Shown in pieces: positions 12,002 to 33,580 of a stretch of 36,378 nt of DNA (position 1 is the stretch's first letter; every line of letters begins with the position of its first letter). Position numbers and translations under genes: made by a program. Origin of the DNA: a virus; IMG/VR virus record IMGVR_UViG_3300027861_001745, positions 1-36,378 of that record; one strand, written 5' to 3'. Under the pieces are notes generated by a model, which ran no database searches, was not told where the DNA came from, and saw only the letters and a list, made by a program, of their open reading frames with translations.

Positions 12002-12205
12002 TTACAACGCGTCAATCGCGTCATTGTATATTTTTTCGTATGTTTGTCCTGTGTCACCAATCTTTCCTTTAATCTCACTTCTGCGGTTAGTTCCAAACGC
12101 TGCCATGTTCTGATCTGAAAGATAAATAGAAGTATCTGAGTTAGCAGCCTGTAAAACTGTAACCTTCTTCTCGTTTGACCTAGTTTCTGTTGAATAATCC
12201 ACCAT
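12002..12205 (-). CDS. Small protein, 67 aa, first gene of the adaptor/nozzle unit
   Basis: A 67-aa hydrophilic protein beginning MVDYSTETRSNEKKVTVLQA, predicted alpha/beta. No domain is recognised. Its ATG follows the U-tract of a terminator-like hairpin by five bases and there is no Shine-Dalgarno sequence. I preferred this frame to an overlapping 76-aa frame (11995-12225), which starts inside the hairpin and has poor composition. Being the first gene after the best promoter in the window, it may mark the start of the adaptor-nozzle-fibre-ejection transcription unit. Small virion or assembly protein is the best guess. Confidence 0.65.
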   Translation of the reverse strand: MVDYSTETRSNEKKVTVLQAANSDTSIYLSDQNMAAFGTNRRSEIKGKIGDTGQTYEKIYNDAIDAL

Positions 12206-12243
12206 ATATAAAAAAAGAGACCCACTGTTATTAGCGGATCTCT
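12206..12243 (-). promoter_or_regulatory. Terminator-like hairpin abutting an ATG
   Basis: Minus-strand RNA: a 10-bp stem with two G-U pairs (234-243 against 216-225 of the 12.2 kb region), an 8-nt loop, then seven U, AUAU and the AUG at 12205. It has the form of an intrinsic terminator, but the promoter at 12274 lies upstream of it and the gene downstream, so it would have to be read through. GAAAAGG (12245-12251) lies one base before the stem. Confidence 0.7.
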
Positions 12244-12273
12244 GCCTTTTCTGCTAGAAATCTTTATTATTTA

Positions 12274-12302
12274 ATTATAGGTAAGCTACTTACTCTTGTC
12301 AA
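12274..12302 (-). promoter_or_regulatory. Perfect-consensus sigma70/sigmaA promoter
   Basis: Minus strand: TTGACA (12297-12302), 17-nt spacer, TATAAT (12274-12279); both boxes match consensus exactly. The leader of about 62 nt carries GAAAAGG and the hairpin in front of the 67-aa gene. It would drive the adaptor, nozzle, fibre and ejection genes. Confidence 0.85.
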
Positions 12303-12303
12303 G

Positions 12304-12378
12304 CTATTCATAAACTATCGTGACCGCTGCACTATTAGCTATTGTTAGTCTTAATCCATCATTGACATAGCTTCCCTT
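12304..12378 (-). pseudogene. C-terminal remnant of a fibre gene
   Basis: An open frame with no start codon reads SYVNDGLRLTIANSAAVTIV then YE and a stop. It closely parallels the last residues of the 502-aa fibre protein that ends just upstream (FSNGLAIKVSVDVCNVLVIY, E, stop). It therefore looks like the leftover 3' end of an older or duplicated fibre gene, stranded after exchange of the rest. It cannot be expressed as a protein by itself. The identification rests on the shared N-G-L...V.V.YE-stop pattern in the right frame and place. Confidence 0.6.
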
Positions 12379-12382
12379 CTAT

Positions 12383-13891
12383 TTATTCATAAATTACTAA
12401 AACATTACACACATCAACAGAAACCTTTATTGCTAAACCATTACTAAATGGTAAACCAAAGAGGTCTACTGGAAGTGGAGCATAATCTGTTTTAGCTTTT
12501 ATTCCACCACTTGACCAAAGCAATGTATCTGCATCTGAAGTTCCGTCATAAAAATCAATCTCAGTATCATCTGCTACACCACTAATAACAATCCCCTTTA
12601 CCACTCCTGCTCCATATTTACAAATTGTGGTGTTGGCATCTCCAATGATAAACTTACTTGTTTGGTTAGTAGTTAGCTCACCCTCTCTTGCTATATACAT
12701 ACCGACTGATTCAAAAGAAACATCAGTTGCACCAGAAGTATTAAGGTTTTCAATGGTAATAGGTAGAGTCATAAAGTATGACTGATGAGCTCCTGCTTTT
12801 TTATGCAGTAGTTCACCGTTTACATAGAAGAAAACAGCTAGTGGGGTATATTCTATTGAAAGTTTGTAGTATGTATCTGCTGTTGGTGTCCAAATAGCAC
12901 CCATGTTTCCATTAAAAGAACCACTAGCAACTGAACTAACTGTTCCTTCATTGGCTCTTGAGTTCACACTAAATGTAGCGTTACTTAATTCAAAATAGAA
13001 ACCATCAACAGGTGTGTTGACATCAGCGGTCGTGGTATAAGCTCCAACTCGTCTAATGTTGTTTTCTGTATATGCTGTCTTAAAGTTAAACCCACCTTCA
13101 AACATCATAGCTGAACCAGCGACAAACCTTGCTTTTCTTACACTTGTATATTTAGCTGAACTTGCTGCTGTGGTAGTAACGGCATTAGTGTGCAAATCTA
13201 TCTCTCCACCTACTTGAGTAATTGAACCACTAAGCAAACTTCCATCTGTCCAAAAGTTAGGGTCTAAGGTTACTCCATCAAAGTTAGTACCTACCATTCT
13301 GTAAACAGGGCTTACTGCTTGTTCATTGGTTGGGTTTATCCAAGCGTGCCTCTCTGAATTATGTCTACCAGTTAAAGTTGTTTCTGTCTTTAATCTAGCG
13401 TCATCACTTAATGAACTTGGTAGAGGTGTAGCAATAGGGCATAAAACTCCCTGTAGTCTGAATGCTGTAGTAGCAATAGTTCCTTCATTTGTAACTCTAA
13501 TTCTCCAGTATGATTGAGTAGCTTGGACTGTTTCTCCTTGACCACCTTTTGAGGCGATGTAATCATAGTGATAGCTTATATCCCAATTTGTTCCATCAGG
13601 ACTTTGCTCAATATAAACTGTGCAGTTTTGGGTTGTATATAGACTCCACTGCAAGCCTACTACTCCGAGTGTAGATGTTTTTGTACCCTCAAATGTTGCT
13701 CCAGAAGCTAGGTTGGTTGTGCTTGAGTTGTTTGGGTCTGCCGTTACGTTTTGAGTTACGCTGATTGTCTCAAAGTTAACTACATTTCCAGACGAGTCTA
13801 CGTTAAACACCTTCTTACCAGGAACACCGCTTATGTGTGCGTGTTCTTCTAGATCTAGTTGTGGTTGTACGTTTCCTTTGTGGTCTATCAT
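12383..13891 (-). CDS. Fibre/adhesin with lectin-like domain, 502 aa
   Basis: Residues 1-40 (MIDHKGNVQPQLDLEEHAHI) form a short N-terminal attachment segment. About 45-155 is a beta domain (WSLYTTQNCTVYIEQSPDGT), and about 190-410 resembles a concanavalin/laminin-G-type jelly roll (DGFYFELSNATF, YKLSIEYTPLAVFFYVNGEL). The last 90 residues form a compact beta unit ending NVLVIYE. It probably binds a surface glycan. The ATG overlaps the TGA of the 124-aa gene. A stranded copy of its C-terminus lies just downstream (12304-12378), a sign of past exchange in this adhesin. Confidence 0.6.
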   Translation of the reverse strand: MIDHKGNVQPQLDLEEHAHISGVPGKKVFNVDSSGNVVNFETISVTQNVTADPNNSSTTNLASGATFEGTKTSTLGVVGLQWSLYTTQNCTVYIEQSPDGTNWDISYHYDYIASKGGQGETVQATQSYWRIRVTNEGTIATTAFRLQGVLCPIATPLPSSLSDDARLKTETTLTGRHNSERHAWINPTNEQAVSPVYRMVGTNFDGVTLDPNFWTDGSLLSGSITQVGGEIDLHTNAVTTTAASSAKYTSVRKARFVAGSAMMFEGGFNFKTAYTENNIRRVGAYTTTADVNTPVDGFYFELSNATFSVNSRANEGTVSSVASGSFNGNMGAIWTPTADTYYKLSIEYTPLAVFFYVNGELLHKKAGAHQSYFMTLPITIENLNTSGATDVSFESVGMYIAREGELTTNQTSKFIIGDANTTICKYGAGVVKGIVISGVADDTEIDFYDGTSDADTLLWSSGGIKAKTDYAPLPVDLFGLPFSNGLAIKVSVDVCNVLVIYE

Positions 13892-14262
13892 AGAATTAGG
13901 TTCTCCTTCTTCATCTGGAGCTCTGATTGTTTGGTATCTAGATTACTGTACATAACTAATTTTCTTAAAAGACCAGGACCTTTCTCTGTTGATCCCATCA
14001 TTCTTGCTGTTTCCATAATATGTTTTACTACCTTTGGTCCACCTGGCTCACCTGTAAAGTTTTTAGCCCATGCATATATCTTCTCCGCGTTCTCACCATC
14101 TCCATCAAATCCATGTTCAAATCCTAGTATGACTGCAAGTTCTTGTAAGTCTTGCATCTCGTTGATAGGCTTCTCATTACTACTCTGCTCTCGCTTATCT
14201 ATACGAGGTTCTTCCTTGACTTCCTTATCTACTGCTTCCTCTATTGGTACTCTGTCTGTCAT
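13888..14262 (-). CDS. Helical accessory protein, 124 aa, paralogue of the 15.5-16.1 kb gene
   Basis: The first 40 residues are charged and disordered; residues about 45-115 form a helical domain (AEKIYAWAKNFTGEPGGPKV, then ARMMGSTEKGPGLLRKLVMY). The same pattern, Y.W.K..., R..G.T.KG..L, LD, K.KE, occurs in the protein at 15548-16099, so the two share a domain. Both lie beside fibre genes, one at each end of the adhesin block, which suggests a linker or fibre-attachment subunit. Function otherwise unknown. The start overlaps the upstream stop as TAATG. Confidence 0.6.
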   Translation of the reverse strand: MTDRVPIEEAVDKEVKEEPRIDKREQSSNEKPINEMQDLQELAVILGFEHGFDGDGENAEKIYAWAKNFTGEPGGPKVVKHIMETARMMGSTEKGPGLLRKLVMYSNLDTKQSELQMKKENLIL

Positions 14263-14756
14263 TATTCTGTTCTTTTGAACATATAAGTTACAATATAAGG
14301 TTGTAAATTATTATGTGCTGTACCACTTCCAGTATTTTGATTAGTGGCAGTTTTATTAGCAGTTCCACCACTATCTCCGGTATAACCACTTCCATCATTT
14401 CCATAACGCATTGTGTTTGTAGTAGAACCCATATTAGTACCAGGATTTGATACTGTTACATTTTGATAAATAGTTCCCCTAGTATGATTATGAGCATCCT
14501 GAATATGAGTATGCTCTGCCAACTCAGCAGTAGATAAAGCGTGCGTTTTTTCTCCACCAGTTTCTTCAGAAACATCAAAATCAGCATCTCCAGAGTCTAA
14601 ACTGACAAGAGTTTTTCCTGCTCCAAATGTTGCCCAAGTTCCAAAACCAAATAAAGTACCTGGATTAGTAGATGCGGTAGAAATGTAAATAGAACCTATT
14701 GGATAAACTTTTTTTAGAATAGCTGTAACAGATTTTGTTATTGTATTACTTCCCAT
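14262..14756 (-). CDS. Tail-collar / gp10-C-like receptor-binding tip, 164 aa
   Basis: Begins with a short helix, then YPIGSIYISTASTNPGTLFG and FGTWATFGAGKTLVSLDSGD, the signature of the phage tail-collar / baseplate gp10-C-terminal fold. His-containing motifs HTH and HNH (about 82-92) and AHNNLQPYIVTYMFKR at the end are also typical; in T4 gp12, such His residues hold a metal ion on the trimer axis. It probably forms a trimeric tip that meets the cell surface. AAGGT lies 5 nt before the ATG. Confidence 0.75.
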   Translation of the reverse strand: MGSNTITKSVTAILKKVYPIGSIYISTASTNPGTLFGFGTWATFGAGKTLVSLDSGDADFDVSEETGGEKTHALSTAELAEHTHIQDAHNHTRGTIYQNVTVSNPGTNMGSTTNTMRYGNDGSGYTGDSGGTANKTATNQNTGSGTAHNNLQPYIVTYMFKRTE

Positions 14757-14765
14757 ATATTACCT

Positions 14766-15557
14766 TTATGTATAATAAACAAATCTAACACCTTCACCAT
14801 CTTCAGTGGAATCAATGTAGATATCTGATAGATTATCAATTTCAAGAGAATAAGTATCACCAGCATATAGAATTACTCCTGTGCCAGTCGCTTCAGTTGC
14901 ATCTACTCCAGTAAATCCTACTGCTATCAATCCTGTATTGTCTGTTTGTGCCTGAATATCTACCTTCTTACAAGCTGTTGATCCAGCTAAAGCCTCATCT
15001 GTTCCTGCTGTAGTGACTGTTTTAACTCCGTCTCCACCACCAGTTACATCATGTCCCACCCTACCGATAGCTGCTGTTCCTGTATCTAGGGTGATGGTTC
15101 CAGAATCAATAGTTACATTACCCTTCAATGCGATTGGATTTGTCACATCGGTAACTGCTGTGACTGTAGTAATAACACCACTATCTATGGTGACGTTGCC
15201 TTTAGTAGCAACAGCATTAGTAATGTCTGTCACTGAGGTAATTACACCGCTATCTATAGTTACATTACCTACTAATGAAGTTGGTTGTGTGGTTTGCCAG
15301 AACGTGCCTGATACTGGTTGAGTTACCCCAGACCCATCTACTGTTAAGGCAACTCCTCCATCTTCAACAGTTACGTTTCCTGAAAATGAAGTAACCCATG
15401 GGGTAGTCCCTTGCTCTACTGTTACATTTGCATTTGTTACAGCTTGAGTATTTACTATTGCATATATTGTGGCGGTTGATTTAACGATGCTGATGTTTTT
15501 GGCGTTGGCATTACCATCGTGTTCAACCCTGTCATATCCGTCTTTTGCTAATCCCAT
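14766..15557 (-). CDS. Repeat-containing fibre protein, 263 aa
   Basis: Composed of Val/Thr/Gly/Asp-rich beta repeats. The element GNVTIDSGVIT occurs three times (about residues 96-160, spaced 24-30 residues) with a related GNVTVEDG copy before them, and QPVSGTFWQTTQPTSLVGNV in the middle. Such repeats are common in phage fibre stalks. The C-terminal 90 residues form a separate beta domain ending GVRFVYYT. GGAG lies 7 nt before the ATG, which overlaps the preceding gene by 10 bases. Probably a stalk or a side fibre. Confidence 0.65.
   Translation of the reverse strand: MGLAKDGYDRVEHDGNANAKNISIVKSTATIYAIVNTQAVTNANVTVEQGTTPWVTSFSGNVTVEDGGVALTVDGSGVTQPVSGTFWQTTQPTSLVGNVTIDSGVITSVTDITNAVATKGNVTIDSGVITTVTAVTDVTNPIALKGNVTIDSGTITLDTGTAAIGRVGHDVTGGGDGVKTVTTAGTDEALAGSTACKKVDIQAQTDNTGLIAVGFTGVDATEATGTGVILYAGDTYSLEIDNLSDIYIDSTEDGEGVRFVYYT
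15115..15275 (-). repeat. Degenerate tandem repeats encoding GNVTIDSG units
   Basis: Three related units of about 70-90 bp encode GNVTIDSGVIT/GNVTIDSGTIT followed by variable Val/Thr linkers. They are diverged in DNA but conserved in protein, so they are older than the 34-bp repeat in the 7.8-8.9 kb fibre gene. Confidence 0.7.
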
Positions 15558-16099
15558 TTTATCTCCTCTGATTTTGGCTTAGTGGTTACATCTTTAACTT
15601 TGATGTTAGCCTCTTTTTGTAATTTTGATGTTTCTACTTGTTGTTTAGATGATTCTTTTAGTTTGGTGTCTGCTAGAAGATCTGCGTCTTCGCTTATCTT
15701 TTGTTGTTTCTCTTTATCTCCATGCCACTTAGCTGCCTTCTCTGCTATCCTCTCCTGTCTTTCTAAAGCCTTCTTCTGGGCTTCACTCAGTTGTTCTTTG
15801 TGAGCTTCCTTTTGTTTTTTAATCCTAGTGCTGTCATCATCCAACCTAGCCCACTTGTATAGCTCAGTTACAAGCGTCTTTCCTTTAGTAGTTTGTCCAA
15901 TGTCTCTTTTGAATTTAACTGCGGTTCTAAGGACATCTGTAAACTCATCACTACCCGACTTAGCTTTAGACCAGTTGTATAAATACATGACTTTCTTAGC
16001 CACGTCAAAGTCCTCACGAACATACTTATCTAACCCTAGAAAGTCAGCAAACCTATGAAAGCTAGGATCGTATAGAAAATTGTCCCCTAGAATGTCCAT
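15548..16099 (-). CDS. Helical accessory protein with coiled coil, 183 aa
   Basis: I take the start at 16099 (MDILGDNFLYDPSF), right after a terminator-like hairpin; the longer frame to 16120 would begin inside the hairpin. Residues about 25-95 hold the same helical domain as the 124-aa protein at 13.9-14.3 kb (VMYLYNWSKAKSG, IGQTTKGKTLVTELYKWARL). Residues about 100-165 are a Lys/Glu/Gln coiled coil. It has no Shine-Dalgarno site. As first gene of the fibre block, it may be a chaperone or attachment subunit. Function unknown. Confidence 0.6.
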   Translation of the reverse strand: MDILGDNFLYDPSFHRFADFLGLDKYVREDFDVAKKVMYLYNWSKAKSGSDEFTDVLRTAVKFKRDIGQTTKGKTLVTELYKWARLDDDSTRIKKQKEAHKEQLSEAQKKALERQERIAEKAAKWHGDKEKQQKISEDADLLADTKLKESSKQQVETSKLQKEANIKVKDVTTKPKSEEIKWD

Positions 16100-16133
16100 A
16101 TATAAAAACAGCCCGATCAACTATGACCGAGCT
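16100..16133 (-). promoter_or_regulatory. Terminator-like hairpin abutting an ATG
   Basis: Minus-strand RNA: 9-bp stem AGCUCGGUC (16125-16133) with GAUCGGGCU (16110-16118), 6-nt loop, then GUUUUUAUAU and the AUG at 16099. The stop of the glycosyltransferase upstream lies inside the stem loop. GAAAAGG (16137-16143) lies three bases before the stem. Same architecture as at 12.2 and 33.5 kb. Confidence 0.7.
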
Positions 16134-16818
16134 TTTCCTTTTCAGATAAAGATCTTTGTAAGTATTTTAATACAGGATACGCCTTGCTGTCAATCATTTT
16201 CTTCTTATAATCCACCCACTGACCAATCATATTATTCTCGTCCCATCCCTCAGGTCTACCATGCTCTAGCGAGTAGGACTTAATCCCCTGGTCTATCTTG
16301 AAATCATATCCACCCACCATCTCAAGTCTTTCAAACACCCCCCTAGCATCAAACCCATAGCCCTCAAAGTCCATCTCCTCATCAAACCCTCCTACGTCAT
16401 ACATGGCTTGTTTAGGAATTGAGCATAGATTGGCTTCTATATCCCACGGAAAGCATTGATAGAAAGACCCTTGATCGTCTCTCTCTCTAGGATCTTGCCA
16501 GGTCTTAGCAGTCCAGGTGTCGTCTGTGTACTTATTGCCCACCGCAGTTATTAAAGTCTTAGGTTCTGATTGATAATGTAACCAAAACTTTTCTAAACAA
16601 TCTGGATCTGCAAATGTATAGTCTTGCCAACTAACTAGCAGTTCACCCTTTGCTCTGCTAATTAAATCATTATATGCCCGATTAAGTCCCCATACTCCAC
16701 CCTTATAACGCTTGTCATTAATTAACCACTCAAAGTCAGTAGTTGTTTGTCGTCTTAACGCCTTCTCTACAATCTCAAGTCCTTCTAGTCTTACACTTGG
16801 GGTGATGACACTTATCAT
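16117..16818 (-). CDS. Family-2-like glycosyltransferase, 233 aa
   Basis: Starts MISVITPSVRLEGLEIVEKA, the first beta-strand/helix of a GT-A (family 2) glycosyltransferase, followed by ALRRQTTTDFEWLINDKRYK and KGELLVSWQDYTFADPDCLE, where the usual nucleotide-sugar site lies. No clean DxD is present; QDY at the equivalent place may be the variant. The acceptor half has GGFDEEMDFEGYGFDARGVF, a typical GG(F/Y)DE motif. The frame has an ATG five codons earlier, but this ATG overlaps the preceding stop (ATGA) as neighbours do. Last gene of the cargo operon. Likely transfers a sugar onto a glycan. Confidence 0.75.
   Translation of the reverse strand: MISVITPSVRLEGLEIVEKALRRQTTTDFEWLINDKRYKGGVWGLNRAYNDLISRAKGELLVSWQDYTFADPDCLEKFWLHYQSEPKTLITAVGNKYTDDTWTAKTWQDPRERDDQGSFYQCFPWDIEANLCSIPKQAMYDVGGFDEEMDFEGYGFDARGVFERLEMVGGYDFKIDQGIKSYSLEHGRPEGWDENNMIGQWVDYKKKMIDSKAYPVLKYLQRSLSEKEKLGHS
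16164..16193 (-). promoter_or_regulatory. Sigma70/sigmaA promoter inside the end of the glycosyltransferase gene
   Basis: Minus strand: TTGACA (16188-16193), 18-nt spacer, TAAAAT (16164-16169), within the last 25 codons of the glycosyltransferase. The leader of about 58 nt holds AGATCTTTAT (boxA-like), GAAAAGG and the hairpin before the fibre block. Confidence 0.65.
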
Positions 16819-17063
16819 ACTCTCCTTATACATAATATATATTTTCTTCTAAGTTCTTTATGAGCCTGATACCTACATTGTCCATCAAAGATCTGATTAG
16901 AACGATCTATTACTATTGGAGGCATAGCTCCTCTTTTTAAAATCTTCTTATATTTTTCAACCTTATGTTTAAACAAATCATCTTGTTTATCCCAATGTTC
17001 ACCTATTGGTTTAACATTATTTATCTCGTTTATTGGTATTTTTTCTATATTTATTTTTTCCAT
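16815..17063 (-). CDS. ParB/Srx-like domain protein, 82 aa
   Basis: Contains a minimal ParB/sulfiredoxin-like core: EKIPINEINNVKPIGEHW, then AMPPIVIDRSNQIFDGQCRY and a following helix (RYQAHKELRRK). The DGQCR motif is in the place of the DGxHR or GxRR motif that binds nucleotide in ParB-fold CTPases and small-molecule kinases. It lacks the DNA-binding part of plasmid ParB, so partitioning is unlikely. With a second ParB-like protein next door inside a sugar operon, a kinase or nucleotide-binding role in precursor synthesis is possible; that is inference. Confidence 0.6.
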   Translation of the reverse strand: MEKINIEKIPINEINNVKPIGEHWDKQDDLFKHKVEKYKKILKRGAMPPIVIDRSNQIFDGQCRYQAHKELRRKYILCIRRV

Positions 17064-17575
17064 AATACAAAATTCTTTTTATAAATCATTCCACAATTTT
17101 TACAATAATGTAATTTCCCGTTAGGCATCCCTTGAGGAAAAGTAGAAATAGGACTACTTACTCCGTCTTTATAAATCAACAACTCATTACAAATTAAACA
17201 TCTATGACCACTGTATTGAGCAATGTCTTTGTATGGAAAAACAAATTTACCACCAAATTTTCCTTTAACTTTACCAGTTCCTTTTCCTAAACTACGAAGT
17301 ACCTTAACTCTTTTCTTTCCAAGAAACTTATACAGTGCTAGTCTATGTGTTCCATCTCTGAGGTTGTTCTTTTCATCAAGTACAAGCGGTGGGAGTATTA
17401 CTCCACTCTTCATTAACTCAAGATAAACCTCCATTTTTTTATTTGGTGGCTTATTAACTTTTGATAGTTCATACTTAGCACTAAACAATGCAGTATCTTT
17501 AATCTCATCTATGGAGAGAGAAATAACTTCCCAATCTCTATCCTCTCCTTTGATTGATTTAATAAAGTTTTTCAT
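17051..17575 (-). CDS. ParB/Srx-like protein with zinc ribbon, 174 aa
   Basis: Residues 15-100 form a ParB-like domain: EVISLSIDEIKDTALFSAKY, ILPPLVLDEKNNLRDGTHRL, ALYKFLGKKRVKVL. The DGTHR motif (about 69-73) resembles the DGxHR of ParB-fold serine kinases (SerK/SbnI type). Residues about 128-164 carry CLIC and CKNC pairs, a zinc ribbon. It overlaps the 82-aa ParB-like gene by 13 bases and the upstream glycosyltransferase stop as TAATG. Likely nucleotide-binding; whether it phosphorylates a small molecule in glycan assembly is unproven. Confidence 0.6.
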   Translation of the reverse strand: MKNFIKSIKGEDRDWEVISLSIDEIKDTALFSAKYELSKVNKPPNKKMEVYLELMKSGVILPPLVLDEKNNLRDGTHRLALYKFLGKKRVKVLRSLGKGTGKVKGKFGGKFVFPYKDIAQYSGHRCLICNELLIYKDGVSSPISTFPQGMPNGKLHYCKNCGMIYKKNFVLWKK

Positions 17576-18291
17576 TAGAATCCATTATAATAATCTGCTA
17601 CCATTTGTTCTGGATACTTTTTATTCCATATATCTTCTGGATATTCTCCAAATTCTCTTTTAAACTTTTCCCTATTATCATCTATTTTAAACTGAGGAAC
17701 TTTAGATAATGTCCAAGATCCCCAGTGTTGATAAGCCGATTTATTGGTATATGCGGTTATCCATCCGTTTAGATGTCTTACTTGATGCCAAAATTTCCAA
17801 TCGTCATAACCACCCATGCCATAGTTAAGATCATAATTCCCCTCTGGTAAAGCCTCACGCTTAATTAAGAAGAATGATGAAGTACACCATCTTTCTTTAC
17901 CAGTTTTCCACACCTTATCCCCAAACTCAAACGGGTGGTCATAAGGTATCATCTTGTAGTGTACTGAGCCGATTTTGGGGTCTTTAAGGATCTCTAAACC
18001 TACATCAAAGATGTTCTCTGGAACTCTAATGTCGTTGTTACTAATGCACATCACATCACTAGTGGCTAGTGCTAGTCCCTGGTTTACCGCACCTGGGTAT
18101 CCGAGGTTCTCTTGATTCCTTACATAGATGTCAGCAACATCTCTTAGGTATCCTGGTGCAAAGGTAGAGCCATTATCAACGATGATCATTTCTACATCTC
18201 TAGCAGCTTTAATAGTCTCTACACTCATCTGAGTCATCTGGTGGATTTCCTGCTCTGTATTCCAGCAGGGGATTATTACACTAACACGCAT
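17575..18291 (-). CDS. Family-2 glycosyltransferase, 238 aa
   Basis: A clear GT-A fold: MRVSVIIPCWNTEQEIHQMT at the start, VDNGS (38-42), ENLGYPGAVNQGLALATSDV, then SNND (84-87) as the DxD-equivalent that holds the metal and nucleotide sugar. The acceptor half has MGGYDDWKFWHQV. Length is normal for a single-domain family-2 enzyme. It is soluble, with no membrane segment. GAGGAGGG precedes the ATG and it overlaps the upstream GT gene by 11 bases. Probably transfers a hexose; the substrate cannot be read from sequence. Confidence 0.85.
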   Translation of the reverse strand: MRVSVIIPCWNTEQEIHQMTQMSVETIKAARDVEMIIVDNGSTFAPGYLRDVADIYVRNQENLGYPGAVNQGLALATSDVMCISNNDIRVPENIFDVGLEILKDPKIGSVHYKMIPYDHPFEFGDKVWKTGKERWCTSSFFLIKREALPEGNYDLNYGMGGYDDWKFWHQVRHLNGWITAYTNKSAYQHWGSWTLSKVPQFKIDDNREKFKREFGEYPEDIWNKKYPEQMVADYYNGF

Positions 18292-19096
18292 TGAGTCCCT
18301 CCTCTATGTCTTGGGCGTACTTTTTACCTGAGTAGTATTTCTGGATAAAATCTCTGGGTGTTAATTCACCAGACTTCTTAAACTCTTTAATGTAGGAAGC
18401 AGCTCTCTTGTTCTGGGGATTAATTACTTGAGGCAAGATGCTACAACTCATGCTCTCCAACACTGTTCTCTCTGATCCATGTACCGCAGGAATGATTACA
18501 TTCTTAGCTCGGTGGTAGTAGTCTCTAATCTTACTGATCGGGAAGTAGCCCACCTCTACGTTCACTCCCGCATTAACACAGGAATCATACTCACTCTGTC
18601 CGTCGGGTTGAATAGTACCGATACAAGTTAGCCTATTTCCTAGGTGTGCTATGTCTGATTGCATCTTCCATGGGCTAAAGGTGGCTGGATAGAAATACTC
18701 CAGGTTTTTCTCAGTTTCCTTGGGGGCAAAAAACTCATCGTCAGTTCCAAAGGCTCTCTTAGCGTGTATACCCCTCATCCGACACTCGTCATAGATGATC
18801 TGAGTCTCACAAAACACGATGTCAAATCCTAGTAAGTTGTGATAATTAGTGGGGTGAGTAGTTAAGCAGATAGCTCTCTTGGCAGGATACTTGGTGTGAA
18901 ACCTGGAAAAGTTAGAATTGGAATCACACCAAGTGATAATCCAGTCGTAGTCCTTCTTAATCTCTGGGGCTTTGTGTAGATACCAGTCAACTTCGTGCTT
19001 CTCTCCGAGGATCTCCATTGCCTTGCGTAAGCCATCTCTCCATAGGGGGTAGATTTCCTCTGCTCTCTCCCACTCCCATATAAAGGCTATTTGCAT
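18281..19096 (-). CDS. GT-B-type glycosyltransferase (family-4-like), 271 aa
   Basis: I place the start at 19096 (MQIAFIWEWERAEEIYPLWR), which has GGAAGGAAACC before it; twelve further codons upstream lie in the preceding gene. The N-terminal half is a Rossmann-like domain; the C-terminal half has FGTDDEFFAP, the ribbon IRDYYHRAKNVIIPAVHGSE and RTVLESMSCSILPQVINPQN, the E-x7-E type donor-binding region of family-4 enzymes. It is somewhat short for GT-B. Probably a soluble sugar transferase acting with its neighbours. Confidence 0.7.
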   Translation of the reverse strand: MQIAFIWEWERAEEIYPLWRDGLRKAMEILGEKHEVDWYLHKAPEIKKDYDWIITWCDSNSNFSRFHTKYPAKRAICLTTHPTNYHNLLGFDIVFCETQIIYDECRMRGIHAKRAFGTDDEFFAPKETEKNLEYFYPATFSPWKMQSDIAHLGNRLTCIGTIQPDGQSEYDSCVNAGVNVEVGYFPISKIRDYYHRAKNVIIPAVHGSERTVLESMSCSILPQVINPQNKRAASYIKEFKKSGELTPRDFIQKYYSGKKYAQDIEEGLNAC

Positions 19097-19581
19097 GGTT
19101 TCCTTCCCATACAGTATATAGCATCCTCCCATTTATGAAGTGGGTCATCGTACTGAACTTCAAACGAAAACTCCTCATAATCACCCAACATTATCTTGGC
19201 ACTACCTGGCATGAATCGCCAGTAATCACTTGGATGATCATGCTCCTCACAGTTTCTTCCTGGGAATCCTAATACAATCCAACCACCAGGCTTTAAAACC
19301 TTCTTCATCTGATCTAGTGTTACCCAAAAGGCATCATCGTGTTCAAAAGTATCAAAACTGCATACTAAGTCAAACTCTTCCTCTTTGAACTTGGTTAATA
19401 GATCGTGTCCGTTTAAAACCACATCTACATTCCCACCCTTCCTCATATCTACACCAACATACTCATGTTTAAATAATTTCCTAACACTCCCGTTTATATC
19501 AAGTGATCCAATATCTAATACCTTAGTAGGATTAAAAGTATCAAGCAATTTTAATAAATAGTCTGTTGTCTGACCTCTCAT
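19087..19581 (-). CDS. SAM-dependent methyltransferase, 164 aa
   Basis: Class I methyltransferase core: motif I VLDIGSLDING (21-31), acidic end of strand 2 VGVDMRKGGNVD, motif at strand 4 FDLVCSFDTFEHDD, and LKPGGWIVLGFPGRN. This pattern matches the Methyltransf_11 group of small-molecule O-, N- or C-methyltransferases. At 164 aa it is a minimal fold without a cap domain. It overlaps both neighbouring genes by 4-10 bases. Probably methylates a sugar or its lipid or nucleotide carrier. Confidence 0.85.
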   Translation of the reverse strand: MRGQTTDYLLKLLDTFNPTKVLDIGSLDINGSVRKLFKHEYVGVDMRKGGNVDVVLNGHDLLTKFKEEEFDLVCSFDTFEHDDAFWVTLDQMKKVLKPGGWIVLGFPGRNCEEHDHPSDYWRFMPGSAKIMLGDYEEFSFEVQYDDPLHKWEDAIYCMGRKPCK

Positions 19582-24355: not shown

Positions 24356-24528
24356 ATCCCCATCTCCTTTAGGTCGGGCTTATCACCCATGCTGGTAGAT
24401 TTACTTTTATATGCACTCCAATTAGCCTGACACATTTTCTTATAGCAAGTTGTGGGTACGTTTCTAATGTCTGTATAAAGAATCTCCTCTTTGCAAACTG
24501 GACAGTTCTTCTTTTGTTGGACTATCAT
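24313..24528 (-). CDS. Zinc-ribbon small protein, 71 aa
   Basis: Has KNCPVCKEE (C9, C12) and TTCYKKMCQAN (C28, C33), two Cys pairs typical of a zinc ribbon, and a Lys-rich tail. GGAGGG lies 4 nt before the ATG. The overlap with the next gene is 43 bases, long for this operon. Function unknown; a nucleic-acid or protein-binding accessory is usual. Confidence 0.65.
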   Translation of the reverse strand: MIVQQKKNCPVCKEEILYTDIRNVPTTCYKKMCQANWSAYKSKSTSMGDKPDLKEMGIWQASKDYKKSKKK

Positions 24529-25319: not shown

Positions 25320-26026
25320 ATCGTCTCCTCCATTCCATGCTTCTGTTGCAACTGAACTGGTAAGTACCGAGCCATCTTAGGATCTTTATCTAGTACGATT
25401 CTCATAGCTCCATCAAGCTCGTCATACCTAAACTCCCTACTCCAGTCTATAGCCACATTCTTCCAGTTAAACTTGTTCCTAGCCCATGCCATCATCGGGT
25501 TACGCATCTCGTCTTGTCTCTCGTCAGTGAGTCCTGCAATTAGAGCCTCAGTGTACTTCTTTTGTGTTTCTGGCTCATAGATATCACCCTCAACTGTAAT
25601 GCCCCACTTTACTGTGGTGTTTAGGGCTGCGTAGTTCACAACAACGGGCATAGCACCCCACGCTTGAGCCTTCATAGCGGATATACAGCTAATCTCACCA
25701 AAATGAGTAGGATAAGCCCAGACTCCACACTTCTCAATCCACTTCTTCATCTCTGGTTGTGAGACTCTTCCGTGATGGGTGATTCCTGGTTGATCCATCA
25801 ACTTATCCATTCTATCCTTCCAAGCCATAGAAGCTGGATTGTTATGATAAAACTTAACAAAGAGTTGCCATCCATAGAAGATGTGTAGCTCTGCATCTGG
25901 TACAGCCTTGCGTACATCACCCCATACCTTGAGTAGATGCTCTAAGCCACGATCGTAGGAAGATTGGTAAATACACCAATGCTTATGTCTTACAGTTTTT
26001 GAGATGTTTGAGGTCTCCTTTATCAT
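25316..26026 (-). CDS. Glycosyltransferase family-4 C-terminal half (split gene, 3' piece)
   Basis: Begins in the middle of a GT-B enzyme: YQSSYDRGLEHLLKVWGDVR (20-39) and PDAELHIFYGW, then HHGRVSQPEMKKWIEKC, WAYPTHFGEISCISAMKAQA (with Glu 111) and WGAMPVVVNY, the donor-sugar half of family-4 transferases. The matching N-terminal half ends the 614-aa protein at 26512. An HNH gene sits between them. The start ATG (26026, AAAGG 4 nt upstream) lies inside the HNH gene. Both halves lie in one operon, so they may reassemble as two chains. The first ten residues may be new, gained from the insertion. Confidence 0.8.
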   Translation of the reverse strand: MIKETSNISKTVRHKHWCIYQSSYDRGLEHLLKVWGDVRKAVPDAELHIFYGWQLFVKFYHNNPASMAWKDRMDKLMDQPGITHHGRVSQPEMKKWIEKCGVWAYPTHFGEISCISAMKAQAWGAMPVVVNYAALNTTVKWGITVEGDIYEPETQKKYTEALIAGLTDERQDEMRNPMMAWARNKFNWKNVAIDWSREFRYDELDGAMRIVLDKDPKMARYLPVQLQQKHGMEETI

Positions 26027-26465
26027 AATGACCTTTCATATGTTGTGATGAATCTTGGCATAGGACAAGATTTGAAATCACATTCTGTTGCTTGTTTCCA
26101 TTTTTGTGGTGTACTACTTCCGTTAAAGATAAATATCTTCCCAACGCCTTTTCCATTACTAGACGATGTTCTCTTACATATCCGTGATAATCGCAATGAG
26201 GATGTTTTTTGTTCCATATTAGTATATACCCATCTTTGTCTATTCTTTTACCACCATTCCATCTTGGATTTTTACTCCCTGAAACATCTCTATTGGGACG
26301 TTTAATGAAAGGCATTTTCTTTCCCTTCCAGTATCCCTCAACATTATTCTCTTGCCAAAGTCCTTTGCACTTAAGTGAACAGAATGGTTTTGGAGTTCTT
26401 TTAATCCTACTTGGTGGTAAAGAAAGTTTTTTGTCGCACTCACGACACTTGATGATAATTGGCAT
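25983..26465 (-). CDS. HNH homing-type endonuclease, 160 aa
   Basis: N-terminal zinc knuckle: KCREC (7-10) and FCSLKC (29-33). Then SKNPRWNGGKRIDKDGYILI, a familiar linker of HNH homing enzymes, and the catalytic HNH motif, EHRLVMEKALGRYLSLTEVV, HHKNGNKQQN (119-128), SNLVLC, H142 and H146. The enzyme cuts DNA to drive its own copying. It has no clear ribosome site. It lies in the middle of a glycosyltransferase gene, with no room around it for a group I intron core, so it is a bare insertion. Confidence 0.85.
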   Translation of the reverse strand: MPIIIKCRECDKKLSLPPSRIKRTPKPFCSLKCKGLWQENNVEGYWKGKKMPFIKRPNRDVSGSKNPRWNGGKRIDKDGYILIWNKKHPHCDYHGYVREHRLVMEKALGRYLSLTEVVHHKNGNKQQNVISNLVLCQDSSQHMKGHYDKGDLKHLKNCKT

Positions 26466-26511
26466 AACATAATTATACCACGTCTTATGATTTTATCTCT
26501 ATGTTCTTTTG

Positions 26512-28356
26512 TCATAAGGAAATTCCATTTCCAGAGAGCATAATTTTATTATCGGGTACATCTGGCATATTACTTCTATGCCATGGAGAAAGAACTATTA
26601 TTTTAGTAATTTTTGACAATCGTTCGGGAGTATAGTCTAGTTGGTTAATTATATCGTGACACCAGATATAGGTCTTCTTAGCCTTGAAGTTCTGATCTAC
26701 TAAGTCTGGTCGTCTCCAACTAACCATAATATTAAACTCATCCCTAGTATTAAACTTAAAGTAAGGAAGATACCTAACCCCGTCGTGATCGCCCTCGTCA
26801 CTCGCTGGATCTGCATAGACTGTTACTTTCCACCCCTGCTTCTTGAGCTCTTGGGATAAATACATTACTGCTTCTTCTGATCCGCCTATGAATGAATCTC
26901 CTGGGTTATCTAATATCCTAGGAGACCAGTTAGTGAAAGCAGGACCGCAATAGATAGCTATCTCATCACTACCCCACTTATGAGGAGGATTAATCTGCTT
27001 CTCTAGGTCTACTACAAATGGATTCCCCCTAATGATCTCTGGAGCTGACATCATTAATGGTTTTAACTTATCAAGCTCTTTAGTTTGTTTGAGGTAGGTG
27101 GCTAGTTGTACAAAGACCTTAGTAACATCTCTCTGCTCTCTAAGTTGAGATACAAGTCTATACCTCTCGTTGAAGATCTCTTTGTCTTGGTGTAGCTCTT
27201 TTAGTTTAACCGCAGCAGCAAATGCCTCATCTAACTGAGAGGTTTGTAGTGATGCGTGGTAAACAACCTCAAGTGATCTACCCATTAGGTCTCTAGGAGT
27301 GGTGACTAGGGTGGTGTTTGGTTGTTCCATCTTAGAGAGACGATTAATCCACCATAGAGCCCTACTCCATTCCTTCTTAGCCAAATAACAAAGTGCTAAG
27401 TTAACATAGATAGAGGGGAATCTCTCATCCTCTATCATAGCGTTGTGAGCACACTTAATAGCGTTGTTGATCTCACCCATCTCACGATAAATCTCTACTA
27501 AGTACTCCCAACACTGTGATCTCTCTTCAGCCCACCCAGAGGGGTGTGGACCATTTAAATAAGTCTCAAATAGCTTCTTAGCTGAAGTGACATAAACCTT
27601 CTCCTTTGTGTACATCCATAGGTCATACTGAGCTTTAGCTAGGTAGTAGACTGGTCTGGGGTCTTTACCCTCTTCCCGTGCTACTGAGTACTCTAAAGCC
27701 TTAATGTTTCTAGGAACCGCACTCTGCATCCTCTCTTGTGAGGAGAGGTGTAGTACATCACACCTCTTATCATCTAGTTTGCGGGTTGGCTTCTGTTCTA
27801 TGAGAGTCTCATGTATGGGTGCTACCCACTTATAGATACCAGTGTTCCTGATAATGCGTTCTCTTAAGTGTTCAATGAGGATATTCTTAATCTTACCATC
27901 CACAATCTCTGCCTGGTAGATGTAGTTAAGGAATACCGAGTCTAGTTGTTTCTCCTCTGCGTCTCTAACAATCTCTCTTAGCTGATCTCCTCTAAAGACA
28001 TCATCTGCATCTAACCAGATCATCCACTTGTAAGACTCAGGCACCATCTTCATAGAGTAGTTGCGTGCCTCGTCAAACAAGAAGATCTTATCTCCCTCCT
28101 TAATGTTGGGAGTAAGACCAGAGTCTTTAATAAACTTTACTTCCTTCTCGGTAATGGTGTGGAAGAAGCTGTTGGGCTTATACTTTACAACCGCCCCCAC
28201 ATCCTCAAGAGCTTTCTTGAGTTTTTTACCCTTCATCTTAGAGGTAATTAAAACAAAAGACTTATCAACCTGTCCTTCTACTGACTTAAGACACCTTAAT
28301 ACGTCTTCTGGCTTCTCCTGCCCAGCCACAATCATGTGTAGTGCAATTTTACTCAT
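26512..28356 (-). CDS. GT2-TPR-GT4(N) multidomain glycosyltransferase, 5' piece of split gene, 614 aa
   Basis: Residues 1-200 form a family-2 transferase with DADD at 116-119 (WLDADDV). Residues about 210-450 are TPR-like helical repeats (FPSIYVNLALCYLAKKEWSR). Residues 463-614 are the N-terminal half of a GT-B family-4 domain (IAIYCGPAF, FIGGSEEAVMYLSQELKKQG at 490, WCHDIINQL, IIVLSPWHRSNMPDVPDNKI), ending abruptly at NGISL where homologues continue. The C-terminal half is at 25316-26026. The start overlaps the preceding stop (GCATGA) behind GGAGAAGG. Intact, it would be about 850-900 aa. Confidence 0.85.
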   Translation of the reverse strand: MSKIALHMIVAGQEKPEDVLRCLKSVEGQVDKSFVLITSKMKGKKLKKALEDVGAVVKYKPNSFFHTITEKEVKFIKDSGLTPNIKEGDKIFLFDEARNYSMKMVPESYKWMIWLDADDVFRGDQLREIVRDAEEKQLDSVFLNYIYQAEIVDGKIKNILIEHLRERIIRNTGIYKWVAPIHETLIEQKPTRKLDDKRCDVLHLSSQERMQSAVPRNIKALEYSVAREEGKDPRPVYYLAKAQYDLWMYTKEKVYVTSAKKLFETYLNGPHPSGWAEERSQCWEYLVEIYREMGEINNAIKCAHNAMIEDERFPSIYVNLALCYLAKKEWSRALWWINRLSKMEQPNTTLVTTPRDLMGRSLEVVYHASLQTSQLDEAFAAAVKLKELHQDKEIFNERYRLVSQLREQRDVTKVFVQLATYLKQTKELDKLKPLMMSAPEIIRGNPFVVDLEKQINPPHKWGSDEIAIYCGPAFTNWSPRILDNPGDSFIGGSEEAVMYLSQELKKQGWKVTVYADPASDEGDHDGVRYLPYFKFNTRDEFNIMVSWRRPDLVDQNFKAKKTYIWCHDIINQLDYTPERLSKITKIIVLSPWHRSNMPDVPDNKIMLSGNGISL

Positions 28357-28861: not shown

Positions 28862-29806
28862 TTATCCACCAGTTGCATAGCCAACTCTGCGAGCAGAGGT
28901 TCGTTCTGCGAGATATTCTAAAGCGAATTCTCCGACGATTTGACCATTTCTGCGGTCACCATCCTTGGCTAGTTCTTCCCTTACAGGGTTACGTAGATAT
29001 GCGAGACGATACTTGTCTTCCTTGATCGCTATGATAGTAGGACCAGGTGTAGCAGCAGCACTTCGTACATCTTTGTGAGCCATGATTTTGTGAACACCAC
29101 CATCAGACTCATAGACTGAGACAGGGCGAGTTAATCGCTTGTCTTCAGCATAAGTGAATTTGGTGTTGCCTGCTGTGAATTGAGAGATCTTCTGTTTCAG
29201 TCCGAAAGGAACTAAAATTAAATCAAAAACATCTCCGCCTCCTACATCATCCCAGACATCTTTCACCATGTTGTTAAACTCGGTTTCAGAGAGTGAACTC
29301 CCTGAGTTACGAGCGGTGAAGTGTGAAGTGATTACACTATCAAGACCAGCCATTTGCCTAGCGACACCTGAGGAACCAGAAGCTAGCGTACCATTGACGA
29401 TAGCGTACTCCTGATTGTTCTTCCAGTTAACTAGAGCTTTGCTTGCCTGATAGTCGTAAGAGCTTCCCATTCCTGCTTGATCGGTAGCAATGTTGGTACC
29501 TGACACTCGGAAGGTTTGGGTAACAATGTTAGTCCAGTTTGCTCTTCGTGAGGGTTGTTCAAGATCAGAATAGGTCGCAGCAGCACCTTCAATAGATTCA
29601 GACACAGAGGTGGGACGACTAATGTAGTCCTCCTGCCATTGATGCAAGGGTTGCGTAGCAGTGGTTCTTGCAAGCATGGTTGAAAGGGGATTTTCATCAG
29701 GACTGACATCAGTAATGATATCAATCAAGTCTTCTCTCATGGACTCATCTACATCAGTAGATAGTCCGCCTGCTCTAGTGGTTTGTGTTAATAGACCATA
29801 AGCCAT
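28862..29806 (-). CDS. Major capsid protein, SU10/DUF5309 type, 314 aa
   Basis: Matches the SU10-like (DUF5309) HK97-fold capsid proteins: N-terminal REDLIDIITDVSPDENPLST, PLHQWQEDYISRPTSVSESI, then NIVTQTFRVSGTNIATDQAG, DVFDLILVPFGLKQKISQFT and a C-terminus rich in GEFALEYLAERTSARRVGYA. It has the customary length of about 310-330. Hundreds of copies would form the icosahedral shell. It lies directly after the scaffold gene, with an AAAGGAG site 9 nt before the ATG. Confidence 0.85.
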   Translation of the reverse strand: MAYGLLTQTTRAGGLSTDVDESMREDLIDIITDVSPDENPLSTMLARTTATQPLHQWQEDYISRPTSVSESIEGAAATYSDLEQPSRRANWTNIVTQTFRVSGTNIATDQAGMGSSYDYQASKALVNWKNNQEYAIVNGTLASGSSGVARQMAGLDSVITSHFTARNSGSSLSETEFNNMVKDVWDDVGGGDVFDLILVPFGLKQKISQFTAGNTKFTYAEDKRLTRPVSVYESDGGVHKIMAHKDVRSAAATPGPTIIAIKEDKYRLAYLRNPVREELAKDGDRRNGQIVGEFALEYLAERTSARRVGYATGG

Positions 29807-29833
29807 ATATTTTTACTCCTTTCCCGTATATGT

Positions 29834-30690: not shown

Positions 30691-30710
30691 GATAGAGGTT
30701 AGCCCCTATC
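30691..30710 (-). other. 8-bp hairpin between the 71-aa gene and the scaffold
   Basis: Minus-strand RNA GAUAGGGG (30703-30710) pairs with CCUCUAUC (30691-30698), with a 4-nt loop CUAA. It starts right after the stop of the 71-aa gene and has no U-tract. It may protect or set the 5' end of a processed scaffold-capsid mRNA. Confidence 0.5.
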
Positions 30711-30926: not shown

Positions 30927-30991
30927 TTTTTAACTTTTTTTTTCTTCCTCTTACCTCGTGCTGGTTTTCCACTCTTAGTATATATAGCCAT
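30923..30991 (-). CDS. Tiny very basic peptide, 22 aa
   Basis: Begins MAIYTKSGKPARGKRK and ends in a Lys-rich tail; 11 of 22 residues are Lys/Arg and none is acidic. The ATG overlaps the preceding stop (TAATG) and has GGGAGA 5 nt upstream; its TGA overlaps the ATG of the 71-aa gene. This coupling on both sides argues for translation. The sequence suggests DNA or RNA binding, or a role only in coupling. Related in character to the peptides at 2880 and 7714. Confidence 0.6.
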   Translation of the reverse strand: MAIYTKSGKPARGKRKKKKVKK

Positions 30992-31233
30992 TAGGATCTC
31001 CCTTCAATACCTTCTATGTCTGCAATCACTTGTGGTGCTGTAGCTTGTTGGGTGGTCTGTCCCCATTTAACAGTAGCGTTACTTGCTAGAGTTAGATTGT
31101 TGCCCACATCTGGCAAGACATGAGTTTGATTAGCTCCAAAGTTCCATACGTAACCTTCACTGTCCATTACAAATGGTGCTTCTGTCTGATCTTTCCCCTC
31201 TTGGGGTTCTTGTTTGATTCTTAGGTTTCCCAT
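30991..31233 (-). CDS. Unknown small virion-block protein, 80 aa
   Basis: Begins MGNLRIKQEPQEGKDQTEAP, disordered for about 25 residues, then a beta-like part (GYVWNFGANQTHVLPDVGNN, TLASNATVKWGQTT). No domain is recognised. An AAGGAG site lies 7 nt before the ATG. The gene is between the 100-aa and 22-aa genes in the capsid block and may be a small head or decoration protein. Confidence 0.6.
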   Translation of the reverse strand: MGNLRIKQEPQEGKDQTEAPFVMDSEGYVWNFGANQTHVLPDVGNNLTLASNATVKWGQTTQQATAPQVIADIEGIEGRS

Positions 31234-31243
31234 AATTATCTCC

Positions 31244-31546
31244 TTATTTTCCTATTTGGTATTCGTTGTGCTTTTTAAATTTCTTTTTATGTATTGTTTT
31301 ATATGCGTCTATATTACCATCAAAGTACTGCATTATTTCTACTATTACCTTTTTCAAGGCACTGGTTGCTAACGCTGCGTATGTAAACCCCTTCTCATCA
31401 CTGAACTGGCTGGGGTCCGGGAACGCCTGGTTGAGCTTGGTTTCCAGTAGGGGTTTGAGGTAATCCACCCACCCCGGGTGCTCCGAGAGCTCCTTGACCG
31501 CCGATGCCTGGCGGAGTGATTCCTTGTCCTGGTCCGAGAGCTTCAT
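31244..31546 (-). CDS. Unknown head-block protein, 100 aa, overlaps portal by 149 bases
   Basis: Helical and charged: MKLSDQDKESLRQASAVKEL, HPGWVDYLKPLLETKLNQAF, then TYAALATSALKKVIVEIMQY. The ATG has TTGGAGG 6 nt upstream and lies 149 bases inside the portal gene in another frame, opposite the Gly/Pro-rich portal tail. The overlap is GC-rich compared with the surroundings. Position after the portal would suit a small head-completion or portal-associated protein, but no family is clear. Confidence 0.75.
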   Translation of the reverse strand: MKLSDQDKESLRQASAVKELSEHPGWVDYLKPLLETKLNQAFPDPSQFSDEKGFTYAALATSALKKVIVEIMQYFDGNIDAYKTIHKKKFKKHNEYQIGK

Positions 31547-33473
31547 TTTGAGCCTCCAATTTAGAGAAATACTTATCAGCGTCTTTAGTACCTAGTTTTT
31601 CAAAGAAGTCTTCCATAGCTTCCTTGAGCTTGAATTGATAGCCCTCTAAGGCTAGTTGTTGTCGTGTGTTGGGATCAGTGTTTAAGTCTATCATCTGTTT
31701 AGCTGCTGCTATCAACTGTTGGTCATCTGGTACAACCATACTCTCAATGTCTGGGATAAAGTCATACATCCCACCTAGATCATCTGGTTCTAAGATAAGG
31801 TGAGCTAGCTCATCGCCTGGCTCCATAGTCATCTTAGCGAGTCTCTCACCATCTACATCTACTGGATAGGTAGGAGTTGCAAAGTCTTCAGGGTTAATCT
31901 TCCCCTCTGCAATAAGATCCTGCATCTCTAGCTGTACTTCTTCTGGTTGTCCTTCACCATGCATGATAGCTATAGCCTCATCAGTTACTTCCATCTCATC
32001 TAAGCCACGTTGCTTAAAGTAGCGGATAGCATCCTTGCCTACGATTCTAATTACCTTCTGTTGTTCATCTGGGGTAGAAAATAAGAACTGCTTGTTCATC
32101 ATAAACCACATCATCATCTGCTTCTTGAGTGCTTCTGATAAGAACAACTGATTGTAGTTATCCCTAGCATTACGTTGCATAGCACTATCTCTAATCTCAG
32201 TGGCGGTCTTATCTGCTGCTCCTGGGTCTAAACCTGACACTCCCTGTGAACTCTCACCTAATGCCTCTTGCATAGCACCCACCATGAAGCGGTAGGTAGA
32301 GGCAAACTCGGTTACACCAGTTGGTGAAGACTCGTGAGGAGTTACATCATCTGGATTGTTCATTATCCACTTAGCTCCTGGTCCAAACTCAATGGTGTGC
32401 ATCTGTACATTAGCAGCTCTAATCTTTAGAGGCGTGTACAAACTCATGTTTATAGCGTCTAGATACTGGTTAACTAAGGCATTTGTGGCTTTTTGGAGTG
32501 TCTGTACTGGTTCTATCTCACTAAGCCCGTAAAGGTCGTCATCAACCTGATAATACCGAAGCATAACTACAGGTATCTGACCATGTTCCATTGGGTTAGG
32601 AATGTCTCTTAGTACTACACCATGCTTAGGTGCAAAGGTTACCCACCTATCCTCACTGTACTCAGTGACCGTTTCTATAGTTTTGTTGAACTCATCTTTA
32701 CCGAGGAAGTCCTCTAAGCCCTTAATAGACTTGTTCTTGGAAGTCCAGTTGTCATCTCTAGTATCTCCGCCACCCTCACCCTCTTTAGCTAGTGCATCAC
32801 CTAGTATGTCTAGGTTCTTATAGATAGGTTTAGTGCGGGAAGCGTCATTAACTGACTTTAACTCATCTAAGGTTACATACTCACGATACTGGAACCATCC
32901 CTTAACAGTAGAGTATGAAGGATTAGCGAGCACATCTCTGTTTACTAGAGGCTTAAAATCTGGTCCATCGTAAAAGATTTGACTCTTACCAACCATCTTA
33001 CCCTTCTTATTCTTAGCTTTCTTAACTCTTCTCTCAAACCTCCACTTACATAGAGCAAATGATGCTCCATACTTTCTAGTGTTCTGATCCATCATTGCCC
33101 ATTTAGCTAACATTGGCTGACTGTCTACTCTTTCATTCTCATCCCACTGGAAGCTAAGTAACTCGTTGTTAATTCTAGCTCCCAGGGTGTCACCACCCTC
33201 ACGAGGTACCATCCGCCCCCTAGGCTTGTTGGCAAAGAGTCTTGCGGTTTTCTCAAAGATTGCAGTGAATACCCTGGGATCAAATACAACCGCATTGTAG
33301 GGATGATTGGCTTCGTCTATATAAGACCTAAAGAGTTCATCTTTAGTATCCCAATCACCTTTACGCTGATCTAGGTCTTCTGTTGCCATTTCATAATGGC
33401 GAATCATCTTGGAAAATTGTTTACGTTCGTCTGTGGTGCCCCTTGCAGGGACTTGTTCTGTTTGTCTAGCCAT
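31398..33473 (-). CDS. Portal protein, P22-like, 691 aa
   Basis: A P22-type portal: RQFSKMIRHYE-like N-terminus, DQRKGDWDTKDELFRSYIDE, FTAIFEKTARLFANKPRGRM, WMMNKQFLFS, and a wing/stem region with YQVDDDLYGLSEIEPVQTLQ and ALVNQYLDAINMSLYTPLKI. Residues 640-691 are Gly/Pro/Gln-rich and disordered. Twelve copies would form the ring through which DNA enters and leaves. The ATG follows eight U residues of a hairpin and lacks a ribosome site. The C-terminal tail overlaps the 100-aa gene by 149 bases. Confidence 0.85.
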   Translation of the reverse strand: MARQTEQVPARGTTDERKQFSKMIRHYEMATEDLDQRKGDWDTKDELFRSYIDEANHPYNAVVFDPRVFTAIFEKTARLFANKPRGRMVPREGGDTLGARINNELLSFQWDENERVDSQPMLAKWAMMDQNTRKYGASFALCKWRFERRVKKAKNKKGKMVGKSQIFYDGPDFKPLVNRDVLANPSYSTVKGWFQYREYVTLDELKSVNDASRTKPIYKNLDILGDALAKEGEGGGDTRDDNWTSKNKSIKGLEDFLGKDEFNKTIETVTEYSEDRWVTFAPKHGVVLRDIPNPMEHGQIPVVMLRYYQVDDDLYGLSEIEPVQTLQKATNALVNQYLDAINMSLYTPLKIRAANVQMHTIEFGPGAKWIMNNPDDVTPHESSPTGVTEFASTYRFMVGAMQEALGESSQGVSGLDPGAADKTATEIRDSAMQRNARDNYNQLFLSEALKKQMMMWFMMNKQFLFSTPDEQQKVIRIVGKDAIRYFKQRGLDEMEVTDEAIAIMHGEGQPEEVQLEMQDLIAEGKINPEDFATPTYPVDVDGERLAKMTMEPGDELAHLILEPDDLGGMYDFIPDIESMVVPDDQQLIAAAKQMIDLNTDPNTRQQLALEGYQFKLKEAMEDFFEKLGTKDADKYFSKLEAQNEALGPGQGITPPGIGGQGALGAPGVGGLPQTPTGNQAQPGVPGPQPVQ

Positions 33474-33519
33474 AAAAAAAAGACCCTTACGTACCCTCTT
33501 GCGAGGCGAATATGGGTCT
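33474..33519 (-). promoter_or_regulatory. Terminator-like hairpin abutting the portal ATG
   Basis: Minus-strand RNA AGACCC (33514-33519) pairs with GGGUCU (33481-33486); inside, CCUC (33503-33506) pairs with GAGG (33495-33498) around a GCAA tetraloop. Eight U residues follow, then the AUG at 33473. GAAAAG (33525-33530) lies five bases before the stem. Confidence 0.7.
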
Positions 33520-33551
33520 CCTTACTTTTCGTATAAAAGACTTATTCCATA

Positions 33552-33580
33552 ATAATACTAAATCTATTGTTGGTTGTCTA
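33552..33580 (-). promoter_or_regulatory. Sigma70/sigmaA promoter before the portal gene
   Basis: Minus strand: TAGACA (33575-33580), 17-nt spacer, TATTAT (33552-33557). The leader of about 72 nt contains AGTCTTTTAT (boxA-like), GAAAAG and the hairpin. Confidence 0.65.

Follow-up and report, generated by a model that had tools for sequence, protein, structure and literature searches.

Promoter-antiterminator-terminator modules before virion genes of uncultured phages: a proposed family of transcription attenuators

In the RAT/BglG-SacY-LicT systems of bacterial sugar operons, the leader contains one small imperfect hairpin that shares bases with the foot of an intrinsic terminator, and a protein that stabilises this hairpin brings about read-through (PMC9981650). 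In the ANTAR systems (EutV/NasR/AmiR), a protein reads the loop of a hairpin that competes with a terminator, the loop bases being conserved while the stems vary (PMC8934654). Here we describe a repeated module that stands before the genes starting at 12205, 16099 and 33473 of the IMG/VR virus record IMGVR_UViG_3300027861_001745 (36,378 bases; hereafter the window), the main genes of which lie on the minus strand. All three copies are on that strand and present, in order, a sigma70-type promoter, the motif GAAAAG, an intrinsic terminator, a run of U and an ATG; a second hairpin lies between promoter and terminator. The leader behind the promoter thus contains two hairpins that exclude each other, of which the downstream one is an intrinsic terminator, and this arrangement would place the module in the known class of terminator/antiterminator attenuators. 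From this anatomy and its conservation, we consider it probable that the module attenuates transcription phage-wide and is released by a factor binding the upstream pentaloop hairpin.

The closest architecture is that of RAT, with which the phage leaders share an antiterminator hairpin overlapping the terminator foot; unlike the common RAT consensus, their loop and stem sequences vary between phages, they serve virion operons, and they occur in several copies per genome. Recognition through a loop would recall ANTAR or lambda boxB. Like ANTAR targets, the phage element has a conserved loop, variable stems and a hairpin in competition with a terminator, but ANTAR targets are dual hexaloops conserved at positions 1 and 4, whereas the phage element consists of one hairpin, interrupted by an internal loop and capped mostly by a loop of five nucleotides (nt). 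The boxB site of lambda N is a small hairpin with an A-rich, GNRA-like pentaloop that varies between phages, and GAAAA, the loop of the window, is also a lambda boxB loop. The nut sites, which work with Nus factors, act processively on distant terminators and overlap none; the phage hairpin, by contrast, is 5'-terminal and overlaps one, which points to local antitermination. With lambda-type Q systems the modules share a terminator that comes immediately after a late operon promoter and has to be read through, yet they carry an RNA antiterminator, whereas Q binds promoter DNA and needs none (PMC6606751). The put RNA of HK022 is likewise a nascent-RNA element near a promoter that suppresses termination, as we propose for the phage leaders, but it is about 70 nt long, with two stem-loops and no overlap with a terminator (PMC9378689), as opposed to a single 26-30-nt hairpin placed before one. 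SU10 and phiEco32, whose podovirus virion genes are distantly related to those of the window (SU10 portal and adaptor Pfam matches), express their late genes under a phage-encoded sigma factor from tAATGTATA promoters (PMC4281155, PMC4331800), unlike the sigma70-type promoters and attenuators seen here. No Rfam 15 family scored above its gathering score, two leaders searched at E <= 1 giving sub-threshold matches only, and in the literature, subscription papers not covered, we found no account of phage late or virion genes under local antiterminator hairpins.

Each element that a sequence-only reading of this DNA had listed before the three genes is present where that reading placed it. The module before 12205 has the promoter TTGACA-17-TATAAT (12274..12302; 12/12 to consensus), followed after 22 nt by GAAAAG, by a terminator stem at 12216-12243 whose U-run completes the element (12210..12243), by AUAU and by the ATG. 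Before 16099, the promoter is TTGACA-18-TAAAAT (16164..16193; 11/12), GAAAAG follows after 20 nt, and the terminator (16104..16133, stem 16110-16133) leads through G, U5 and AUAU to the ATG. The copy before the portal gene at 33473 has TAGACA-17-TATTAT (33552..33580; 10/12), 21 nt, GAAAAG, and a terminator hairpin (33480-33520, -17.7 kcal/mol) with a U-run ending at the ATG (33474..33520 in all). The 12205 and 16099 promoters were the top two promoter matches in their 20-kb scan, and the stems of the same two modules were the top two terminators in it. There is in addition a fourth promoter-hairpin-U7-ATG unit at 665-769, before a 64-amino-acid gene (470-664). Its terminator is long (-27 kcal/mol) and its upstream part is built differently: 13 nt separate promoter and stem, against about 30 nt in the three modules, and it is without the upstream hairpin, a different competing pairing, of GUAUUACC with GGUAAUAC, being possible instead. 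A further strong terminator-like hairpin with U7 lies on the minus strand at 552-572, inside the 470-664 reading frame.

What the sequence-only reading missed is the second hairpin. Folding the interval from the -10 box to the 5' arm of the terminator yielded, in nearly all leaders folded, a hairpin of some 26-30 nt, beginning close to the transcription start. It consists of an outer stem of 4-7 base pairs (bp), a small internal loop, an inner stem of 3-4 bp and an A-rich pentaloop. In all three window copies the 3' arm of this antiterminator is the 5' arm of the terminator, with one mismatch in the copy at 16099, so that the two hairpins exclude each other. At the portal gene the antiterminator reads GUCUU-uua-UAC-GAAAA-GUA-ag-GAGAC (33516..33541); at 12205 it is GAUUUCU-a-GCA-GAAAA-GGC-AGAGAUC (12237..12262), the A-G beside the loop being a mismatch; at 16099 (16129..16154) the loop is again GAAAA, and the one mismatch falls in the outer stem. 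The shared GAAAAG is therefore the apical loop of the antiterminator plus the next base; it holds for the window, while the wider family conserves the hairpin rather than this motif. In the leader of the relative L110, for instance, GGUUGA-aaa-GGUA-aacaa-UACC-au-UUAACC forms the antiterminator, and its UUAACC continues into AACCGACC, the terminator 5' arm. Across 66 modules, a few of which score weakly and may be false, the median distance from the -10 box to the antiterminator 5' arm is 10 nt, which puts the arm near +1, and the terminator is the stabler hairpin in 66 of 66 (mean -16.8 versus -6.4 kcal/mol).

The coevolution of the two arms was evident in a swap test on 59 leaders, given only the terminator position and no fitted antiterminator. 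Pairing of each leader with its own arm averaged -4.89 kcal/mol, against a permuted mean of -3.13 (z = -7.9; 0 of 100,000 permutations); an earlier duplex test against shuffled leaders, moderately significant (combined p = 5e-5), is superseded by this stronger one. A covariance model, R1, was built from six leaders in the unedited alignment A6, and its top matches in 741 kb were the leaders of other phages. In the alignment fitted to R1, 94% of cells were paired, double changes occurred at all 10 pairs and both stems covaried, although counts obtained with R1 are biased towards the model; the pairing signal vanished once the partners were shifted by 1-3 columns. A refined model, R2, located modules before further genes too. 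Finally, a composite scanner (promoter, antiterminator, terminator and start codon) run over 1.01 Mb of related DNA returned 46 matches on the plus and 7 on the minus strand, 48 of them having a start codon no more than 30 nt away. Six dinucleotide-shuffled versions gave 4-9 matches each and one start codon in total, a difference that excludes chance.

Conservation was examined mainly at the portal gene. IMG/VR searches with portal and capsid proteins provided first 6 and 14 loci, and then 80 portal loci from an alignment. In most relatives the 150 nt before the portal start contain promoter, leader, terminator, U-run and start, while the hairpin sequences share little. The sequence-only reading had named unrelated leader sequence at the same genes in related phages as grounds for its refutation: the sequences did prove unrelated, yet the structure persists, a combination that speaks for function. 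The module precedes the portal gene in 53 of the 68 phages represented in a tree of portal proteins; module-bearing portals fall on both sides of the midpoint root, and there are 10 changes of state. Clean losses are instructive. In L081 and L098 (compared with L082) and in L052 (compared with L054 and L056), the hairpin pair has disappeared and both the promoter and the portal start codon have been kept, indicating that the promoter belongs to the downstream gene and that the hairpins supply a further level of control.

The module is also reused within genomes. Seven copies were counted in G022 (60 of 100 kb read), three each in G021 (74 kb) and G019, and up to three in G020, some of those on the larger contigs having a weak score. 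Besides the portal gene, two positions recur. Of 14 contigs compared, 12 have a homologue of the 183-amino-acid gene behind the second module (15548..16099, minus strand; unknown function), in some cases with a module in front of it (G001, G017), and proteins resembling the product of the 67-amino-acid gene behind the third (12002..12205, minus strand), which heads the next gene block, likewise follow modules in G009, G001 and G013. In a hand-curated comparison, pentaloop identity was 0.72 within and 0.51 between genomes (permutation p < 1e-4), as against 0.30 and 0.25 for the neighbouring stem pairs (not significant). Of 29 loops, every one has A at position 4 and 28 have a purine at position 2; GAAAA in the window is replaced elsewhere in the family by AACAC, AGCAC, UAGAA and others. 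A loop kept while stems varied within genomes is the trace that a specific RNA-binding factor would leave.

We propose the following mechanism. Transcription by host RNA polymerase, carrying the main sigma factor, would start at the near-consensus promoter, and the first 26-30 nt or so of RNA could fold into the antiterminator, whose outer stem would hold the base of the terminator 5' arm. The RNA alone favours the terminator, so the default product would be a short RNA ending in the U-run. If the pentaloop hairpin were held by a factor, probably a phage or host RNA-binding protein, the terminator could not form its final base pairs and polymerase would continue into the virion operon. The opened terminator would also free the U-rich stretch before the AUG, and ribosome access may be coupled to read-through. 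Because the modules of a genome share the loop, one factor could switch several operons together. The switch anatomy (promoter, two exclusive hairpins, coevolution, 5'-end position, reuse within genomes and loop conservation) is well supported by sequence comparison; from it we infer a factor, a switch that is off by default, its late timing and its influence on translation. The sequence-only reading had argued for one device, naming attenuation, antitermination or U-tract-driven initiation. The covarying, overlapping antiterminator in the window and in dozens of relatives favours the first two, and U-tract-driven initiation is neither shown nor needed. Whether an unknown RNA-binding regulator reads the repeated pentaloop hairpin and switches several virion operons jointly, which would constitute a new class of phage antitermination, we regard as an evenly balanced question.

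Several observations weigh against an attenuator worked by a factor. CAT_RBD (PF03123), the domain of RAT systems, was found in none of 16 phage records, while control genomes were positive, though a host protein could still serve. ANTAR (PF03861) was absent from the same number of records (0/16), although no control genome passed the family cut-off, and Phage_antitermQ (PF06530) from 13, a further difference from Q. A shared-gene search of 14 contigs revealed no non-virion gene common to the module-bearing genomes. About 15 of the 68 relatives lack a module at the portal, the leaders of L064, L042, L053, L076 (portal) and L109 gave no canonical overlap in the scan, and the rows of the statistical tests are mutually related, so that significance is somewhat overstated. 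The genes common across the 14 contigs were mainly virion and glycosyltransferase-type genes, also present in G014, where no convincing module was found. Pfam and PHROGs scans of the non-structural open reading frames (ORFs) of G021, G001 and G017 returned replication, nuclease and lysis-type genes and no convincing antiterminator. A weak Anti-TRAP zinc-finger match (E = 0.0018) appeared in these scans, and L133:16365-16604, in the 74-kb relative G021, weakly matched the Acb2/Tad1 hairpin domain, a possible anti-CBASS protein.

The failure of the domain and shared-gene searches to reveal a phage factor also fits a version in which the nascent 5' hairpin acts alone, either kinetically, by folding first and delaying the terminator, or through binding to polymerase in the manner of HK022 put RNA. 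Read-through would then be fixed or growth-dependent rather than operated by a protein, and the hairpin does lie at the very 5' end of the RNA, where it would fold before the terminator is made. We think this possible but doubtful: the terminator is always far more stable, the pentaloop and not the stems is conserved within genomes, which suggests specific recognition, and put RNA, in its size, its two stem-loops and its lack of terminator overlap, does not resemble the phage leaders.

The start codons bear on another alternative. None of the three window modules has a Shine-Dalgarno (SD) site within 18 nt of its start, as the sequence-only reading had stated, and SD-like sites are depleted overall, occurring in 7 of 66 modules. 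Among the other genes of the window the figure is 22 of 47 (Fisher p = 2e-5), and among ORFs of the same loci it is 194 of 630 (p = 3e-4). Together with the frequent adjacency of AUG and U-run, this depletion could mean that hairpin and U-run form a 5' untranslated region for ribosome standby or S1 binding, replacing the SD site, with no termination involved. Such a device is very improbable, since the placement of the ATG directly after the U-run or AUAU, true of the window modules, is not general (among the 66, stem and start codon are 3-39 nt apart), since some starts have an SD site (L005), and since what is conserved is a G+C stem with a U-run, that is, a terminator, plus its overlap with the upstream arm. 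Equally improbable is a mere insulator, in which the hairpin and U-run end upstream transcription, by chance behind the next promoter, and the upstream hairpin has no regulatory role: the terminators do also stand at the ends of preceding gene blocks, and termination there would stop upstream read-through, but downstream of the promoter it would stop its own operon as well, and nothing in it accounts for a coevolving antiterminator arm, a fixed promoter distance or recurrence before different genes.

The portal protein gene, the first behind its module (31398..33473, minus strand; SU10-like matches), lies near the terminase large subunit (34103-35338) and a likely major capsid protein (28862-29806, judged from gene order and sequence); an SU10_adaptor protein is found among tail-type genes (10822-11511). 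The reading frame at 33564-33773, directly upstream of the portal promoter and overlapping it at its end, encodes a 69-amino-acid protein with the look of a ribbon-helix-helix DNA binder. The capsid and tail blocks are separated by about 12 kb (16117-28356) of consecutive, often overlapping genes, several of them glycosyltransferase-like. The window contains no tRNAs. In INPHARED (50,697 phage records), a distant nucleotide search gave no DNA match to the 12000-16400 region and tblastn none to the portal protein. As to the host, L111, a distant portal relative without the module, lies in a groundwater metagenome-assembled genome (MAG) of about 1.2 Mb; listed members of that phylum measure 0.5-2 Mb, and the size would fit Patescibacteria as host, though the contig may be mis-binned. 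A model search of 145 genomes from the phylum gave no match and is uninformative, as no positive control exists. L112, also a distant portal relative without the module, was binned to a Micrarchaeota MAG and is either a host lead or a mis-binned viral contig.

Late genes of known phages are switched by new sigma factors, by phage polymerases or by processive antitermination, and local terminator/antiterminator switches acting genome-wide would be a different solution. These phages are uncultured, with no isolate relative in the collection searched, and the analysis yields a defined RNA family, described by covariance models, together with the hypothesis of a coevolving RNA-binding regulator, which can be tested. 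It also shows that phage leaders can conserve structure where sequence comparison sees nothing. If the proposal is true, these phages would control their virion operons as a regulon at the RNA level instead of through a late sigma factor or Q/N antitermination, and the loop and its regulator would coevolve from phage to phage.

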